A stretch of 64,000 nucleotides of DNA, taken from Verrucomicrobiaceae bacterium (GTDB taxonomy: Bacteria > Verrucomicrobiota > Verrucomicrobiia > Verrucomicrobiales > Akkermansiaceae). The position numbers and the translations under genes are program-made. The notes below the pieces were generated by a model, which had not been told where the DNA came from, made no database searches, and saw only the letters and a list, made by a program, of their open reading frames with translations. The stretch lies in assembly GCA_027484055.1 (NCBI GenBank), contig JAIXQH010000014.1, forward strand, positions 186,001 through 250,000. Direction: 5' to 3'. The stretch's first letter is position 1, and every line of letters starts with the position of its first letter. Positions 3,167-31,495 of this stretch are shown here, one piece after another.

Positions 3167-4656
3167 CCGAGGCCACGCTGATTTACCCGCACCAGTTGTT
3201 CAAGAGTCACCCGGCGGTGAAGCTGGGGCGGGACATTTGGCTGGTGGAGGATCCGCTGTTTTTTGGCAATGACCCGCACTGGCCAACGGTGATGCATGGT
3301 CAAAAGCTCATGCTCCACCGCGCGTCGATGAGAGCGTATGCGGAGGAATTGGTCGCTGCTGGACACCGAGTCCATCTGGTGGAGGCAGTGGTGGGTGCGA
3401 CGGTGGATAGCGCGGAATTACTGGCGCGTCATCTCCCCAGCTCGGTGAAGTCCCTGCACTTGGCGGACCCGGCGGATACCATCTTGCTGAGACGTATCCG
3501 GCGCTTTGCCGCTGCGAAATCGCTGGAGGTGGTAGTCAGTCAATCGCCGAATTTTCTCAGTCCACCGGAATTTCTAGAGGCTCATCTCGCGACGAAGAAA
3601 AAGCCGTTCATGGCGAAGTTCTATGAGAATCAGCGCAAGCGGATGCAGATTTTAGTGGAAGACGGGGGGAAACCCATCGGTGGCAAGTGGTCATTCGATG
3701 CAGAAAATCGCGCGAAATTGCCCAAAGCCCACGTTCCACCCGCCGAGCCGCGCACTCGGGCTGGCGCTTACACTCAAGAGGCCGCCAGCTACGTCAGGGC
3801 TAAGTTCCCAGGTCACCTTGGGCGCTTGGAATCCTTTCGCTGGCCAGTCACTCGGCTGGAGGCGGAGCGCTGGTTGGAGGTATTCATCGACCAACGACTC
3901 GCCCTTTTCGGACTGTATGAGGACGCGATTTCTGCTGAGTATGTGACGATCTATCATGCGGCGATCACCCCGATGCTGAACATCGGCCTGCTAGATCCGC
4001 AAGACGTCATCGAACGGATCTTGGCCAAAGCGGCTGGCTCGGAGATTCCGATGAATTCCTTGGAAGGCTTCATCCGCCAAGTCATCGGCTGGCGTGAGTT
4101 CATGCATGGGCTCTACCGCCACCGTGGCAGTGAAATCCGGAGGGGGAATTTCTGGCAATTTGAGCGACCGCTGCCTCAAGCGTTCTATGATGCCAGCACG
4201 GGAATCCCACCGATCGACCGGGTGATTCGGCAACTTTTGGACGATGGCTATTGCCATCACATCGAGCGCTTGATGCTGCTAGGAAATTTCATGCTGCTCT
4301 GCCGCATCAAGCCGGATGACGTTTACCGTTGGTTCATGGAGTTATTCATTGATTCCTATGACTGGGTGATGGTTCCGAATGTCTATGGAATGTCACAATT
4401 TGCGGATGGTGGGACGTTCACGACGAAGCCCTATTTTTCGGGGTCAAACTATGTGTTGAAAATGTCAGATGAGCCGAAGGGCCCGTGGTGTGCGGTTTGG
4501 GACGGCTTGTTTTGGAGTTTCATCGGCGATTACACGCCATTTTTCCTGAAGAATCCACGGCTCTCGATGATGGCCCGGAGCTGGGAGAAACAAGCGCCGG
4601 AGAAGCAGGAGGCGCACCGCGCGGCAGCGGAGGATTTTCTCGCTGCTTTTAGGTGA
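3163..4656 (+). CDS. Cryptochrome/photolyase of the prokaryotic FeS-BCP group, apparently without the Fe-S cluster
   Basis: 497 residues from the ATG at 3163, which overlaps the previous stop. The N-terminal half is the alpha/beta antenna domain (LIYPHQLF). The C-terminal half has the FAD-binding signatures: FIRQVIGWREFMHGLYR, YCHHIERLMLLGNFMLL, VPNVYGMSQFADGG, TKPYFSGSNYVLKMSD. This is the bacterial (6-4) photolyase/PhrB-like family that repairs UV lesions with blue light. In PhrB four Cys bind a [4Fe-4S] cluster. Here the CxxC after the MSD motif is absent, the TGM-C position reads TGIPP, and only Cys443 remains nearby. The cluster is therefore probably lost. Repair activity rather than pure sensing is likely but not proven. 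Confidence 0.9.
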   Translation: MTEATLIYPHQLFKSHPAVKLGRDIWLVEDPLFFGNDPHWPTVMHGQKLMLHRASMRAYAEELVAAGHRVHLVEAVVGATVDSAELLARHLPSSVKSLHLADPADTILLRRIRRFAAAKSLEVVVSQSPNFLSPPEFLEAHLATKKKPFMAKFYENQRKRMQILVEDGGKPIGGKWSFDAENRAKLPKAHVPPAEPRTRAGAYTQEAASYVRAKFPGHLGRLESFRWPVTRLEAERWLEVFIDQRLALFGLYEDAISAEYVTIYHAAITPMLNIGLLDPQDVIERILAKAAGSEIPMNSLEGFIRQVIGWREFMHGLYRHRGSEIRRGNFWQFERPLPQAFYDASTGIPPIDRVIRQLLDDGYCHHIERLMLLGNFMLLCRIKPDDVYRWFMELFIDSYDWVMVPNVYGMSQFADGGTFTTKPYFSGSNYVLKMSDEPKGPWCAVWDGLFWSFIGDYTPFFLKNPRLSMMARSWEKQAPEKQEAHRAAAEDFLAAFR

Positions 4657-26962: not shown

Positions 26963-27972
26963 TGGAACTCCTCTGCCTGGGTCTCAACCACCGCACCGCC
27001 CCCGTGGAAGTGCGAGAGCGCTTCGCTGTGGGCGCGACCAAGCTTGGCGAAGCCTGCACCGACCTCATCACCCTCGCAGATGCCACGGAAGCCCTCGTCA
27101 TCTCCACCTGCAACCGCACCGAGTTCTATCTCGTCGCAGAAAATGCCCGTGACGCCTTCACCCGCATCGAAGCCCGCCTCGCGGAGAAAATCCAACTCGA
27201 CTCCAGCGTCGCTGCCCATTTTTACCGCAAGGAAAAACTCGAAGCCGCCCGCCACCTCTGCCGTGTCGTCTCTGGCCTCGACTCGATGATGCTCGGCGAG
27301 ACCGAGATCTTCGGCCAAGTCAAGCAAGCCTACGCCACCGCCCACCAAGCCGGTGCCACTCGCACCGTCCTGAACAAAGCCTTCCAACGCGCCTTCAGCA
27401 TCGGGAAAAAAGTCCGCACCGAGACCTCCATCCAAGAAGGCTCCACCTCCGTCGGTAACGTCGCCGTGGACCTCGCGGAAAAAATCTTCGGCCACCTCAA
27501 GAACAGCGAGGTCATGATCCTCGGCGCCGGAGAAATGAGCCGTATCACCGCCCAAAGCCTCGTCTCCCGGGGTGCGAAATCCATCTTCGTCGCCAACCGC
27601 TCCTTCGACCGCGCCCAAGAACTCGCTACCGAAATGGGCGGCAGCGCCGTCCGCTTCGACGACTGGCAGCGCGTGCTCGAACGCGTCGATGTCGTCATCT
27701 CCTCCACCGGTGCCCCTCACGCCATCGTCCACCGCGCCGATGTCGAAAAAGCCCGCCGCGCGCGGAAATACCGCCCGCTTTTCTTCATCGACATCGCCGT
27801 CCCCCGCGACATCGACCCCGCCGTCGGCGAAATCGAAGAGGTCTATCTCTACGACATCGACACCCTCGAACAACTCGCCGAAGAAGCCCGCGGCCGCCGG
27901 CAGCTTCAGATCGACCAGTGCGAGATCATCATCACCAACGAGCTTGGTAAAAGCCAGCTCCCCGGCACCTGA
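26962..27972 (+). CDS. hemA: Glutamyl-tRNA reductase, short form
   Basis: 336 residues. It reduces Glu-tRNA to glutamate-1-semialdehyde, the first committed step of C5 tetrapyrrole synthesis. The catalytic Cys is in STCNRTEF (near residue 50), followed by the GLDSMMLGETEIFGQVKQAY signature and an NADPH-binding domain with LGAGEMSR. The C-terminal dimerisation domain of the usual ~420-residue enzyme is missing: the chain stops soon after DIDTLEQLAEEARGRRQLQIDQ. Translation is probably coupled to the upstream gene through TGATG. Catalytic parts are complete. Confidence 0.93.
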   Translation: MELLCLGLNHRTAPVEVRERFAVGATKLGEACTDLITLADATEALVISTCNRTEFYLVAENARDAFTRIEARLAEKIQLDSSVAAHFYRKEKLEAARHLCRVVSGLDSMMLGETEIFGQVKQAYATAHQAGATRTVLNKAFQRAFSIGKKVRTETSIQEGSTSVGNVAVDLAEKIFGHLKNSEVMILGAGEMSRITAQSLVSRGAKSIFVANRSFDRAQELATEMGGSAVRFDDWQRVLERVDVVISSTGAPHAIVHRADVEKARRARKYRPLFFIDIAVPRDIDPAVGEIEEVYLYDIDTLEQLAEEARGRRQLQIDQCEIIITNELGKSQLPGT

Positions 27973-27987
27973 TCGAGCACCGTGGGA

Positions 27988-28479
27988 TCATCCATTGGTT
28001 TTCCAAAAACTATGGATCGCAGCGACTTCTTGGCCCTCTGCCAGCTTCGTGATGAGGCCGCGGATTCGTTTGCAGGAAATCTTCAGAAGTCCCTTGGTAA
28101 AAGCCAGCCCTGCTACGGGATCGGCCTCGTAAAAAGAGTCTAACTCCTCAGAACTGAGGCACCAAATCAAGCACTCACTGCGAGCGATAACCGTCGCACT
28201 GGCGGTGGCGGGATCGAAGATATTGATTTCTCCTAATGAATCTCCCGCACCCAACTGCGCGACTAAGATTGGCCGTTCCGTGGCAGAAGTCACCACGTGA
28301 AGCATGCCTGAGAGAATGAGATAAATCGAGTTTTGAGGTTTTCCCTCTTCAATCAGCAACTCACCCGTCACCGGGCGGACGAAGCGGCCGTAAGACGCGA
28401 GAAACGCACGGTGTGACGACTCTACATCGGCTAGAAATCCGATGGCTGGCAATTCAGGAAGCGGTGATGACGAACTCAT
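27988..28479 (-). CDS. Cyclic-nucleotide-binding domain protein without HTH
   Basis: 163 residues. A single cNMP-binding beta-roll covers about residues 25-140 (GELLIEEGKPQNSIYLILSGMLHVV, then LGAGDSLGEINIFDPATASATVIARSECLIWCLS). The phosphate-binding cassette region GEINIFDPATASAT is present in altered form, so nucleotide binding is uncertain. The DNA-binding domain of Crp/Fnr regulators is missing, so it is a stand-alone sensor rather than a transcription factor. It is convergent with hemA (15-bp gap). Confidence 0.88.
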   Translation of the reverse strand: MSSSSPLPELPAIGFLADVESSHRAFLASYGRFVRPVTGELLIEEGKPQNSIYLILSGMLHVVTSATERPILVAQLGAGDSLGEINIFDPATASATVIARSECLIWCLSSEELDSFYEADPVAGLAFTKGLLKISCKRIRGLITKLAEGQEVAAIHSFWKTNG

Positions 28480-28546
28480 AATGGGTATGGCTTGGAGGCT
28501 GAACGACTCAGTTCAAATCCACCAGCCTCAATTTTCATGGGGCACT

Positions 28547-28723
28547 CTGTAGCGTCGGTCTGCGACCGTCGCTGATTGAAAAGGGATGCCGGATGGGGGT
28601 TGCCCTAAAGAAAGATCCATCCTCAAGGAAGATGATCGCTGACGCTGTCTTCGCATCGTGGGTGGATGAGCGTATGTCCTGCTACCTTTTTCAGTTAGCG
28701 ACGGTCGCAGACCGACGCTACAG
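28547..28723. repeat. REP/BIME-like element, copy 1
   Basis: 177 bp bounded by perfect 27-bp inverted ends (28547-28573 and 28697-28723, beginning CTGTAGCGTCGGTCTGCGAC). Each end also contains a small internal palindrome (GGTC-tgc-GACC). It is nearly identical to the copy at 29224-29402 and ends 4 bases from the stop of the RAYT gene. Confidence 0.93.
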
Positions 28724-28727
28724 GCGA

Positions 28728-29189
28728 TTAGAAGCCCGCGTCCTCCAGAATCTGGCCTGCGTATGGCCAATCCTCCGCCCGCTCCACCAAGCCCGCTCTC
28801 ACCGGATTCTCTCGCACATACTTCCACTTCTCCTGATGAGACTCGTTGTTGCGGATCAGGTGATCGAAAAATCCCTTCTGCCAATGCGGGGCCTCGATTC
28901 CACCGCCGCGCCAATGCTTCGAGAGGCTGTTCTTCAGCGACTTCATCCATGCGGAAAGCCCCATCTCGCCCGGCGGGATGCAGACGAAGAGATGCAGATG
29001 ATCCGGCATCAGCACATATCTCCCCACCAGCGCCCCTCTCTCCCGTGCTCGCTCGCAGAAATCCCGAAACGCCTCATGCGCCCCCTCGTTATCCAGGAGC
29101 CGACGCCGCCTATCCGTGCACGTCGTGATGAAATACACCGGTGCCTCGTATAGAGCGATTCCAAACGAGTCAGCCGATGCATGCCACAC
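28728..29189 (-). mobile_element. REP-associated tyrosine transposase (RAYT, IS200-like Y1 family)
   Basis: 153 residues, GTG start. The HUH metal motif is PDHLHLF (HLH, near residue 65). Conserved helices SLKNSLSKHW and WQKGFFDHLIRNNES follow, then the Tyr-bearing KWKYVRENPVRAGLV segment. The N-terminal VYFITTCTDRRRRLLD is typical. RAYTs cut single strands at REP hairpins and are thought to spread REP/BIME elements. It is flanked on both sides by the matching ~178-bp repeats. The frame is intact, so it may be active. Confidence 0.92.
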
Positions 29190-29223
29190 CTTCTAGCGTC
29201 CGCCCGTGACCGCCGCAAGTCCC

Positions 29224-29402
29224 CTGTAGCGTCGGTCTGCGACCGTCGCTGATTGAAAAGGGATGCCGGATGGAGAGATGCCTTAAAGAAAGATCCATCC
29301 TCAAGAAAGATGATCGCTAGTGTAGCTTTCGCATCTAGGGTGGATGAACTTATGTCCTGCAACCTTTTTCAGTTAGCGACGGTCGCAGACCGCGCGCTAC
29401 AG
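29224..29402. repeat. REP/BIME-like element, copy 2
   Basis: 179 bp, same orientation as copy 1. Ends are at 29224-29250 and 29375-29402; the right end differs from the left copy only near its tip (GCGCGC for GACGC). The middle shares long identical blocks with copy 1 (for example AAAGAAAGATCCATCCTCAA) with scattered substitutions. It flanks the upstream end of the RAYT gene. Confidence 0.93.
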
Positions 29403-29408
29403 GCCACG

Positions 29409-29801
29409 TTAAGAAAGTTGGAATTCTCCGTCGTCGTCCACGCCGTGCCAGCCGAGGCGGGCGAAGGCGCGGTAGATGGAGGTGGTGGGCTCTCCTTCTT
29501 CTTCACTTTCACCATGCTCGATGGTGGCGCTGGTGCTGAGGCCGTTGTTGCTCTCGATGCTGATGACCGTGGTGTAGCTTTGCAGGTAGATCCAGTCGCC
29601 CCAAGCTTTTGCCTCATGGCGGGGCTCGAAGTGCTCTTTACGGAGTGAGGCGAGGACTTCTGAGATGGTCGACGGGGTGGCGTCGCTGGGAAGTTTGAGG
29701 AGTGTTTCCATGAGGATGAAGAGGGTGGCGGGGAGGATTGATAGAGCGATAAAGGAAATTAATCGGAAGGTCGAGAATCGTTTGAAAAAGTCGCGTGACA
29801 T
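29409..29801 (-). CDS. Small protein with one N-terminal membrane helix, downstream of the ABC exporter
   Basis: 130 residues from the ATG at 29801, overlapping the 3' end of the ABC gene by 43 bases; a longer start at 29882 would overlap it more deeply. Residues about 12-34 are hydrophobic (FRLISFIALSILPATLFILMETLL), and the rest is polar and acidic (EHGESEEEGE). Family not recognised. The overlap suggests coupling with the exporter. Confidence 0.55.
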   Translation of the reverse strand: MSRDFFKRFSTFRLISFIALSILPATLFILMETLLKLPSDATPSTISEVLASLRKEHFEPRHEAKAWGDWIYLQSYTTVISIESNNGLSTSATIEHGESEEEGEPTTSIYRAFARLGWHGVDDDGEFQLS

Positions 29802-31495
29802 AGACGGGCGTAAGCACCGTCTTGCGAAATAAGCTCTTCGTGAGTGCCTTGTTCTAAGAGCTTGCCGTGGTGAAGCACGCAAATGCGGTCTGCCTTCTGG
29901 ACGGTGGAAAGACGGTGGGCAATGACAAAACAGGTGCGGTCTGAACGAAGATTTTCCAAGGCCCCTTGGACAAGGCGCTCGGTCGAATTATCAAGTGCGG
30001 AGGTGGCTTCATCGAGCAGCAGCAGCAGCGGATTTTTTAACAAGGCACGGGCGATGGAGAGGCGTTGTTTTTCCCCACCGGAGAAGCGGCTGCCGCGTTC
30101 ACCGGCGACGGTGCCGAGGCCTGCAGGACTGGCGCGGACGAAGTCGGCGGCGTTGGCGGCTTCGAGGGCGGCCCAGAGTTCGGCATCGGTGGCGTCGTGC
30201 TTGGCGAGCAGCAGATTTTCCCGGAGCGAGGAGTTGAAGAGAAAACTTTCCTGACTGACGTAACCGAGCTGGTCGCGCAGCCATTCCTTGGACACCGAGG
30301 CAAGCGGGATGCCATCGAGCAAGATGCGGCCGGCGGTGGGTTCGTAAAAACGGGTGAGTAAATTCAGCACCGTGGATTTCCCAGCACCGGTCGCGCCGAC
30401 GAGGGCAATGGTCTGGCCGGGTAGGGCCTCGATGGTGAGGCCGTTGATGGTGGGGGATTGGTTAGCGTAGGAGAAGGAGACATTTTCAAACTGCACATGC
30501 CCACGCAGCTCGGTGGGGCGGAGTCCTTCAGTGAGGTTGCACTCGTCGGGTGTGTCGGTGATTTTAAAAATCCGCTGGGCCGAGACGATGCCGGTGGTGA
30601 AAGTCTGGGCGAGGGTGTTGATGCGGGAAATGGGATCGAACAGGAAACCCCAAGCGACCAGAAACGAGAGCACCACGCCGGGTTCGAGCCTGCCTTGTAG
30701 CACCAACCACGAGCCGAAGGCGACCATGAGAATGATGCCAGACTCGGCGATGAACGAGACGCTCGGCCAGACGAGTGACTGGCCGCGCATGACGGTCATG
30801 TGCTTTTCCCCGACCTTGCGCGAGGCTTGGTCGAAGGTTTCGAGGGCTTGGGGCTCGACGGTGTAAGCTTTGATTTGGCGGATGCCGGCGAGGTTGTCGT
30901 GGAGGATGGCATTGAGCGCCGAGCTGGCTTCCGAAGATGCACGCCACAGCGGCTCTGAGCGGCGACTCCACCAAGTGGTGATGAGGGCGATGAAGGGCAG
31001 GGGAATCAAGGTGACGAGCGTGAGCTGCCACGAGAAATAGAACATGTAAGCGACGACGATGAGGAACTGGAGAATCGCCGCAATGGCCTGGTCCACACCC
31101 TCGATGATGACGCGGTTGGTGGTGGGCACGTCGTTGGCGACGCGGGACATGATTTCACCGGAGGAGTTCGCGTCGAACCAATTGACCGGGAGGCGCTGGA
31201 GTTTGTCGTAGAGCTCGACGCGGATCAGGTGGGTGAGCTTGAGTTCGAGCGCGTTGTTAAAATAGGTGCGGAGGGTGAAAAGCGCCTGCCGCGCAAGGAT
31301 CGCGCCAATGCCGATGGCGGCGGTGGGAATGATGAGGTCAGGCCGCTTTTTCGCGATGATGACGTCGATGAACTGCATCGTGATCCCCGGCAGCACCAGC
31401 ACTAGCGTGGTGCATAGGATCGCCATCAGCAACGAAAGCCCACTCTGTAACGGGAAGCGAAACGTGTGGCGAAGAATGCGCAGCAGGGTAGCCAT
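29759..31495 (-). CDS. ABC transporter, MsbA-like exporter (fused membrane and ATPase domains)
   Basis: 578 residues. Six membrane helices (about 1-310) precede an ATP-binding domain with Walker A GATGAGKST (about residue 370), the LLSGGEK-type signature (FSGGEKQRLSIARALL), Walker B LLLLDEATSALD and the switch His (VIAHRL). Half-transporters of this type dimerise and flip lipids, lipopolysaccharide precursors or drugs outward. Substrate unknown. It overlaps the small protein downstream. Confidence 0.93.
   Translation of the reverse strand: MATLLRILRHTFRFPLQSGLSLLMAILCTTLVLVLPGITMQFIDVIIAKKRPDLIIPTAAIGIGAILARQALFTLRTYFNNALELKLTHLIRVELYDKLQRLPVNWFDANSSGEIMSRVANDVPTTNRVIIEGVDQAIAAILQFLIVVAYMFYFSWQLTLVTLIPLPFIALITTWWSRRSEPLWRASSEASSALNAILHDNLAGIRQIKAYTVEPQALETFDQASRKVGEKHMTVMRGQSLVWPSVSFIAESGIILMVAFGSWLVLQGRLEPGVVLSFLVAWGFLFDPISRINTLAQTFTTGIVSAQRIFKITDTPDECNLTEGLRPTELRGHVQFENVSFSYANQSPTINGLTIEALPGQTIALVGATGAGKSTVLNLLTRFYEPTAGRILLDGIPLASVSKEWLRDQLGYVSQESFLFNSSLRENLLLAKHDATDAELWAALEAANAADFVRASPAGLGTVAGERGSRFSGGEKQRLSIARALLKNPLLLLLDEATSALDNSTERLVQGALENLRSDRTCFVIAHRLSTVQKADRICVLHHGKLLEQGTHEELISQDGAYARLCHATFSNDSRPSD

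Follow-up and report, generated by a model that had tools for sequence, protein, structure and literature searches.

A probable REPtron, with a RAYT gene between two REP dimers, in a Verrucomicrobiaceae bacterium

The stretch of DNA analysed here (64,000 nucleotides of a Verrucomicrobiaceae bacterium, hereafter the window) very probably contains a REPtron, in which a RAYT (TnpA_REP) gene is flanked on each side by a dimer of the GTAG-tagged REP cognate to it. The encoded protein belongs to the RAYT family and keeps the conserved HUH and Tyr residues as well as those that contact GTAG; the stem of the REP hairpin covaries, REPs and RAYTs are inherited together, and further copies of the REP are found in the genome.

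The left dimer (BIME/REPIN-like; 28547-28723, plus strand) spans 177 bp. Its left REP (28547-28573, plus strand) consists of CT, GTAG and an imperfect 8-bp hairpin, and its right REP (28697-28723, minus strand) is an exact inverted copy of the left one. The right dimer (29224-29402, plus strand) spans 179 bp and combines an intact left REP (29224-29250, plus strand) with a right REP (29374-29402, minus strand) that is disturbed by two extra bases in the hairpin region. Between the dimers lies the RAYT open frame (28728-29189, minus strand), which runs for 153 codons from a GTG and whose stop codon is 4 bases away from the left dimer. As predicted beforehand, the two elements of about 178 bp share one orientation and match closely (~90% identity overall, with the 50 bases at the left end exactly shared). 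Inverted ends of 27-28 bp had also been proposed, which holds for the perfect 27 bases of the left dimer and fails for the right one, where only 8 bases are exact owing to a disturbance close to its 3' end. Complementarity extends beyond the exact ends, in 47-nt arms that pair at 87%. Folded as single-stranded DNA, the left dimer formed a stem of ~39 pairs at -54.3 kcal/mol versus a shuffled mean of -24.3 kcal/mol (z = -9.8; 0 of 200 shuffles as good). With up to 3 mismatches allowed, the window contains the 20-base REP core three times, versus 0.00 expected from shuffles, and the spacer of the window dimers is ~123 bp.

The RAYT frame scored 109.7 bits against the NCBIfam model NF047646 REP_Tyr_transpos (cut-off 80) and 34 bits against Pfam Y1_Tnp (cut-off 23), and its top match among solved structures was E. 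coli TnpA_REP, 4er8 (E 2.6e-12). Comparison with known families thus upheld its identity as a RAYT, and the HUH transposase with an HLH motif that had been proposed between the two elements is indeed there. Coordinates computed from the frame place the metal-binding HLH (HUH) motif at codons 64-66 (28992-29000, minus strand) and the conserved Tyr, aligned with that of E. coli TnpA_REP, at codon 124 (28818-28820, minus strand); we take this Tyr to be the catalytic one. The GTAG-contact stretch W-Q-..-(E/D)-H-..-R is present as W103, Q104, D109, H110 and R113, with residues mapped through the alignment with 4er8. Across 17 aligned relatives (L118 and L113, which are broken or carry a stop, were left out), H64-L-H66, Y124 and the W-Q-..-D-H-..-R stretch were invariant. 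According to the available text of PMC6006769, the GTAG contacts in E. coli are W94, Q95, E100, H101 and R104, with E100 replaced by D in subclasses 2.5 and 2.7.

The REP core comprises GTAG, an 8-bp stem and a 3-base loop, one stem pair being a T-T mismatch in the window copies. A single REP hairpin folded with a z of -2.8, and 3 of 200 shuffles were at least as good. A pattern that left the tested stem positions free matched 111 sites in 34 of 80 loci (the best 80 of 146 relatives); its reversed counterpart matched none. The inner stem pair of these sites was G-C in 77, C-G in 32, A-T in 1 and unpaired in 1, and the outer stem pair was G-C in 75, G-T in 30, T-A in 2, A-T in 1, T-G in 1 and unpaired in 2. 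Since both pairing partners exchange, the data support a hairpin under constraint. The window dimers carry the GT(A/G)G tag and the hairpin in inverted pairs, as expected of REP/BIME/REPIN sequences, and their description as REP/BIME-like elements is borne out by the GTAG-tagged hairpin and its covarying stem.

The RAYT loci were compared among the same best 80 of 146 relatives, 72 of which had full flanks. In a blind search, GT(A/G)G hairpins lay within 300 bp on both sides of the gene at 42 of the 72 loci, versus 2 of 63 control stretches at 900-1200 bases and 0 of 53 at 1800-2100 bases. With GTAG alone the two-sided counts were 40/72 near the gene and 0/63 and 0/53 in the distal stretches, while control tags flanked the gene on both sides at 1 (GATG) and 2 (CAAC) of 72 loci. 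One-sided counts gave a less clean contrast: 47/78 upstream and 47/74 downstream near the gene versus 8/71 and 12/72 at 900-1200 bases, with GATG at 4/78 and 10/74 near the gene. The remaining 30 of 72 loci had no hairpin pair, and at L104, a relative at 67% identity, no hairpin was found in either 300-bp flank. The nearest RAYTs, L101 (= G011) and L102, are flanked by REPs on both sides.

The REP class of the window also follows the RAYT tree, on which it required 3 changes, whereas 500 shuffles averaged 22.2 and none was as low; the tree is a quick one, of 71 rows (10 of 81 were dropped) and 137 columns, and many of its forks are unresolved. All 28 rows with the window class fall on one 38-row branch, the other ten rows of which carry a different GTRG class (9) or none (1). 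With REPs on both sides of the gene and a REP class that tracks the RAYT lineage, the original prediction of a REPtron-like unit is confirmed. More distant RAYT-like genes of the genus (L236-L250, L043-L048) have flanking GTAG or GTGG hairpins that differ in sequence, or none that we found, and several REP-RAYT pairings therefore seem to be present in the family.

Further copies of the element ends were expected in the genome and were found: the 24-base pattern matched 13 sites at up to 1 mismatch in the window's own genome (G000), and the reversed pattern matched 0. The full 177-bp form is restricted to two copies, both beside the RAYT. Gene context was read from frame maps rather than annotation; by this reading, 6 of the 10 sites outside the unit are intergenic, 3 fall within two restriction-modification frames (MmeI_N; Type ISP) and 1 is undecided, so that the clustering between genes that was to be checked holds for the first six and not for the three within frames. 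The intergenic sites often follow a stop codon by 13-15 bases or sit where two frames converge. The Type ISP frame, of 1648 codons, holds a single REP in its C-terminal specificity domain (L070:4389-4413; G000:C46 ~11,388).

The other dimers of this genome are of a different type and comprise an array on C16, 1.9 copies on C51 and single dimers elsewhere. The C16 array (L068:4704-5303) repeats a 133-bp unit 4.6 times in tandem; each unit joins a 117-bp REP dimer type to a short link. This 117-bp type, to which the C51 copies and the single dimers belong as well, has different REPs at its two ends and also flanks the RAYT of G011. Used as a query, the 117-bp element matched 35 of 73 genomes at E <=0.001, many of them through the REP alone; nearly full-length matches were seen in at least 10 genomes, with up to 12 candidates per genome scored in most. 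Unrelated tandem repeats of 12, 6 and 42 bp lie near the array (L068:925-1005, 1566-1693 and 3784-4053), and elsewhere on the same contig (L263:2624-3259; G000:C16 ~72.1-72.8 kb) a minus-strand frame contains a long, microsatellite-like run of alternating Val-Gly codons.

Across the genus, REPs were detected in 40 of 73 genomes (24-base pattern, <=1 mismatch; the reversed pattern gave 4 matches in all), and a RAYT of the window clade in four of the 73 (G000, G011, G060 and G062, at >=146 bits with a 17-row profile). This grouping followed the gap in scores, the next full-length RAYT scoring ~80 bits. The four genomes hold 13, 12, 81 and 301 REPs, respectively, whereas the median of the remaining 69 is 1 (Mann-Whitney test, one-sided, p 0.003, a value that ignores kinship and includes many fragmented assemblies). 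Among those 69, 36 hold at least one REP and 15 hold at least ten. Copies had been expected to depend on the RAYT. This stands insofar as relatives hold copies and the REP class follows the lineage; however, with REPs in 36 of 69 genomes without a close RAYT match, and with the 177-bp form found only beside the gene, repeat presence is only loosely tied to gene presence. Judging from 40 genomes with REPs versus 4 with a close RAYT, the repeats seem to outlast or outrange the RAYT.

The gene had also been described as intact. Its reading frame is open, yet a conserved N-terminal motif sits in another frame, which makes an intact frame doubtful and leaves that part of the description not established. 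In the window, an ATG followed by an RLxRL-type motif (MHRLTRLE; 29159-29182, minus strand), conserved in close relatives, is read in a different frame from the RAYT body. The first base of this ATG is 29182; compared with L101, the stretch from motif to body is short by one base. In L101 and L102, the nearest relatives, the ATG is followed by M(N/S)RLSRLD in frame with the body. An RL-type motif, searched for with a pattern looser than RLxRL, was in frame at 29 of the 38 loci that share at least 50% identity and at 4 of the 41 with less; the misses include the broken L118, the partial L170 and loci with other motifs. As judged from this sequence, the start of the RAYT gene may already have suffered damage, and the difference in frame could possibly reflect either real damage or an assembly error.

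These features raise the question of whether the locus is a decaying REPtron, whose RAYT lacks a proper start and whose dimers are relics that no longer move, a reading to which we give slightly less than an even chance. The motif that is one base out of frame relative to L101 and L102, its in-frame position in most loci of at least 50% identity, the modest size of the REP family (13 sites in this genome) and the disturbed right dimer all point toward decay. So does the close RAYT of G062, the genome with the largest REP count (301), since this gene also matches in two frames and is thus broken. On the other hand, the body of the protein is open and conserved from YFIT to the C-terminus, and an in-frame GTG start is available; moreover, the genome sequence consists of 70 contigs and could contain an error of one base here. 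The exact 50-base stretch common to both dimers further argues that they are not old relics.

A broken close RAYT, with matches in two frames, was seen in G062, the most REP-rich genome of the genus set (L234, G062:C46, and L118). Since close RAYTs occur in few genomes and are damaged in some of them, possibly including the window's, one may go further and regard the REP dimers with a conserved spacer as a persistent mobile population of ~117-bp units that is shared between species of this Akkermansiaceae-type genus and outlives the transposase, with the window capturing a RAYT at the moment of its loss, beside a longer 177-bp dimer type of its own. We offer this wider picture tentatively and consider it rather unlikely.

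Two further explanations compete with the REPtron as such. The unit might be an insertion sequence of the IS200/IS605 type that moves as a whole and uses the flanking palindromes as its ends. The shared catalytic superfamily and the palindromes on both sides, in dimers that are ~90% identical, fit this explanation, but the frame reached just 31.4 bits with the IS200 model NF033573, under the cut-off of 55, and was far over the cut-off of the RAYT model. The gene is also present as a single copy (one of 20 model matches in the genome passed the RAYT cut-off), and the flanking dimers are direct repeats of one unit rather than distinct left and right ends. We regard an insertion sequence as highly improbable, and an IS200-type unit was rejected on the model scores and the copy number. 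Equally remote is the idea that the dimers serve as terminators of transcription or as RNA hairpins and have nothing to do with the transposase. Several copies do lie just behind stop codons and the hairpins could act in RNA; the result from Rfam, with no match up to E 0.1 within 27900-29900, was counted in favour of this idea as well. The GTAG tag, the association with RAYTs relative to controls and the co-inheritance with the RAYT lineage speak against it, and a role in termination would not exclude mobilisation. A TIRtron (a TIRYT with terminal inverted repeats unrelated to GTAG REPs) was discarded, as the flanks here are GTAG REPs.

Searches for empty sites turned up no clean one. A REP dimer lies inside the MmeI_N frame (L069:4503-4632; G000:C16 ~94,502-94,631), where it keeps the frame open and adds ~43 codons. 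It is absent from 16 homologous places, obtained from the 17 of 19 loci that aligned on both sides, as L182 and L200 are an identical place. The homologous places are 66-102 bases shorter between the aligned parts. However, the dimer is not a simple addition there, since it takes the place of ~40 bases of a variable linker, and 5 of the 9 displayed loci show, by eye, a GTGG-tagged palindrome-like stretch in that linker; for these reasons the site is not a clean empty one. Beyond L069:4983 the MmeI_N frame diverges from its homologues, and the gene may therefore be broken. The neighbourhood of the RAYT unit itself was not syntenic: at 25 genus loci with the cNMP-binding gene (L202-L226), the flanks examined lacked hemA, the RAYT, the small downstream gene and the ABC transporter.

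For the REPtron that we favor, a mode of action can be proposed by analogy with studied relatives. Single-stranded DNA would expose the GTAG hairpins, and the HUH/Tyr enzyme would recognise the tag together with the hairpin. It would then cleave near the hairpins, at a CT dinucleotide if it behaves like the enzymes described in the available text of PMC8266576, and rejoin the ends. In this way REP dimers would be copied or moved in trans, mostly to sites just behind genes, while the RAYT gene would stay in place.

The closest characterised parallel is the E. coli TnpA_REP/REPtron (group 2; PDB 4er8), which shares the HUH-Tyr enzyme and the GTAG-contact stretch and, as far as the available description goes, a gene with inverted pairs of GTAG REPs on its flanks. 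In contrast, the E. coli REPs are described there as longer and with a required two-base bulge, whereas the window class has an 8-bp stem, a 3-base loop and at most 1 mismatch; the E. coli protein has E100 where the window protein has D. In Stenotrophomonas maltophilia, the accessible part of PMC8266576 describes the Sm REP as 23 nt long, with GTAG directly followed by an 8-bp palindrome with a 3-nt loop. This layout of REPtron Sm (group 3) is that of the commonest REPs in the RAYT clade of the window, although the stem sequence differs and the window copies have the T-T mismatch and a dimer spacer of ~123 bp.

Within Verrucomicrobia, precedents are given in the available text of PMC3733652, which reports GTAG REPs from Proteobacteria, Cyanobacteria, Chloroflexi and the PVC superphylum and a high enrichment in Opitutus terrae. 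The same text describes REP dimers with their tags outside and with often conserved spacers of mostly 20-100 bp, REPs inside genes, and REPtrons. The O. terrae families GTAG-17, -19 and -20 resemble the window class in being verrucomicrobial GTAG REPs that form dimers and also occur inside genes; unlike it, GTAG-17 and -19 have dimer spacers of 1-2 bp, the comparison being by description rather than by sequence. Hence, of the original claim that a verrucomicrobial example is of interest, the clear REP-RAYT pairing stands, but verrucomicrobial REPs and dimers with conserved spacers are, by that text, already in print. Among the matches listed from the literature on REPtrons and on RAYTs of Verrucomicrobia, Akkermansia or Opitutus, no title dealt with this REP-RAYT family in this genus.

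Other bacteria offer well-known examples of such an arrangement, and the general picture of RAYTs is unchanged by this locus; what the window adds is a dimer type that is long and symmetric, beside a RAYT that is possibly damaged. A clear REP-RAYT pairing is hereby documented in a branch of Verrucomicrobiota that has received little study, with a REP class that tracks the RAYT lineage across loci of Verrucomicrobiota, Acidobacteriota and Lentisphaerota. Its uneven spread through the genus, with REPs in ten times as many genomes as the close RAYT, makes the persistence or spread of REPs after the loss of their RAYT testable within one lineage.
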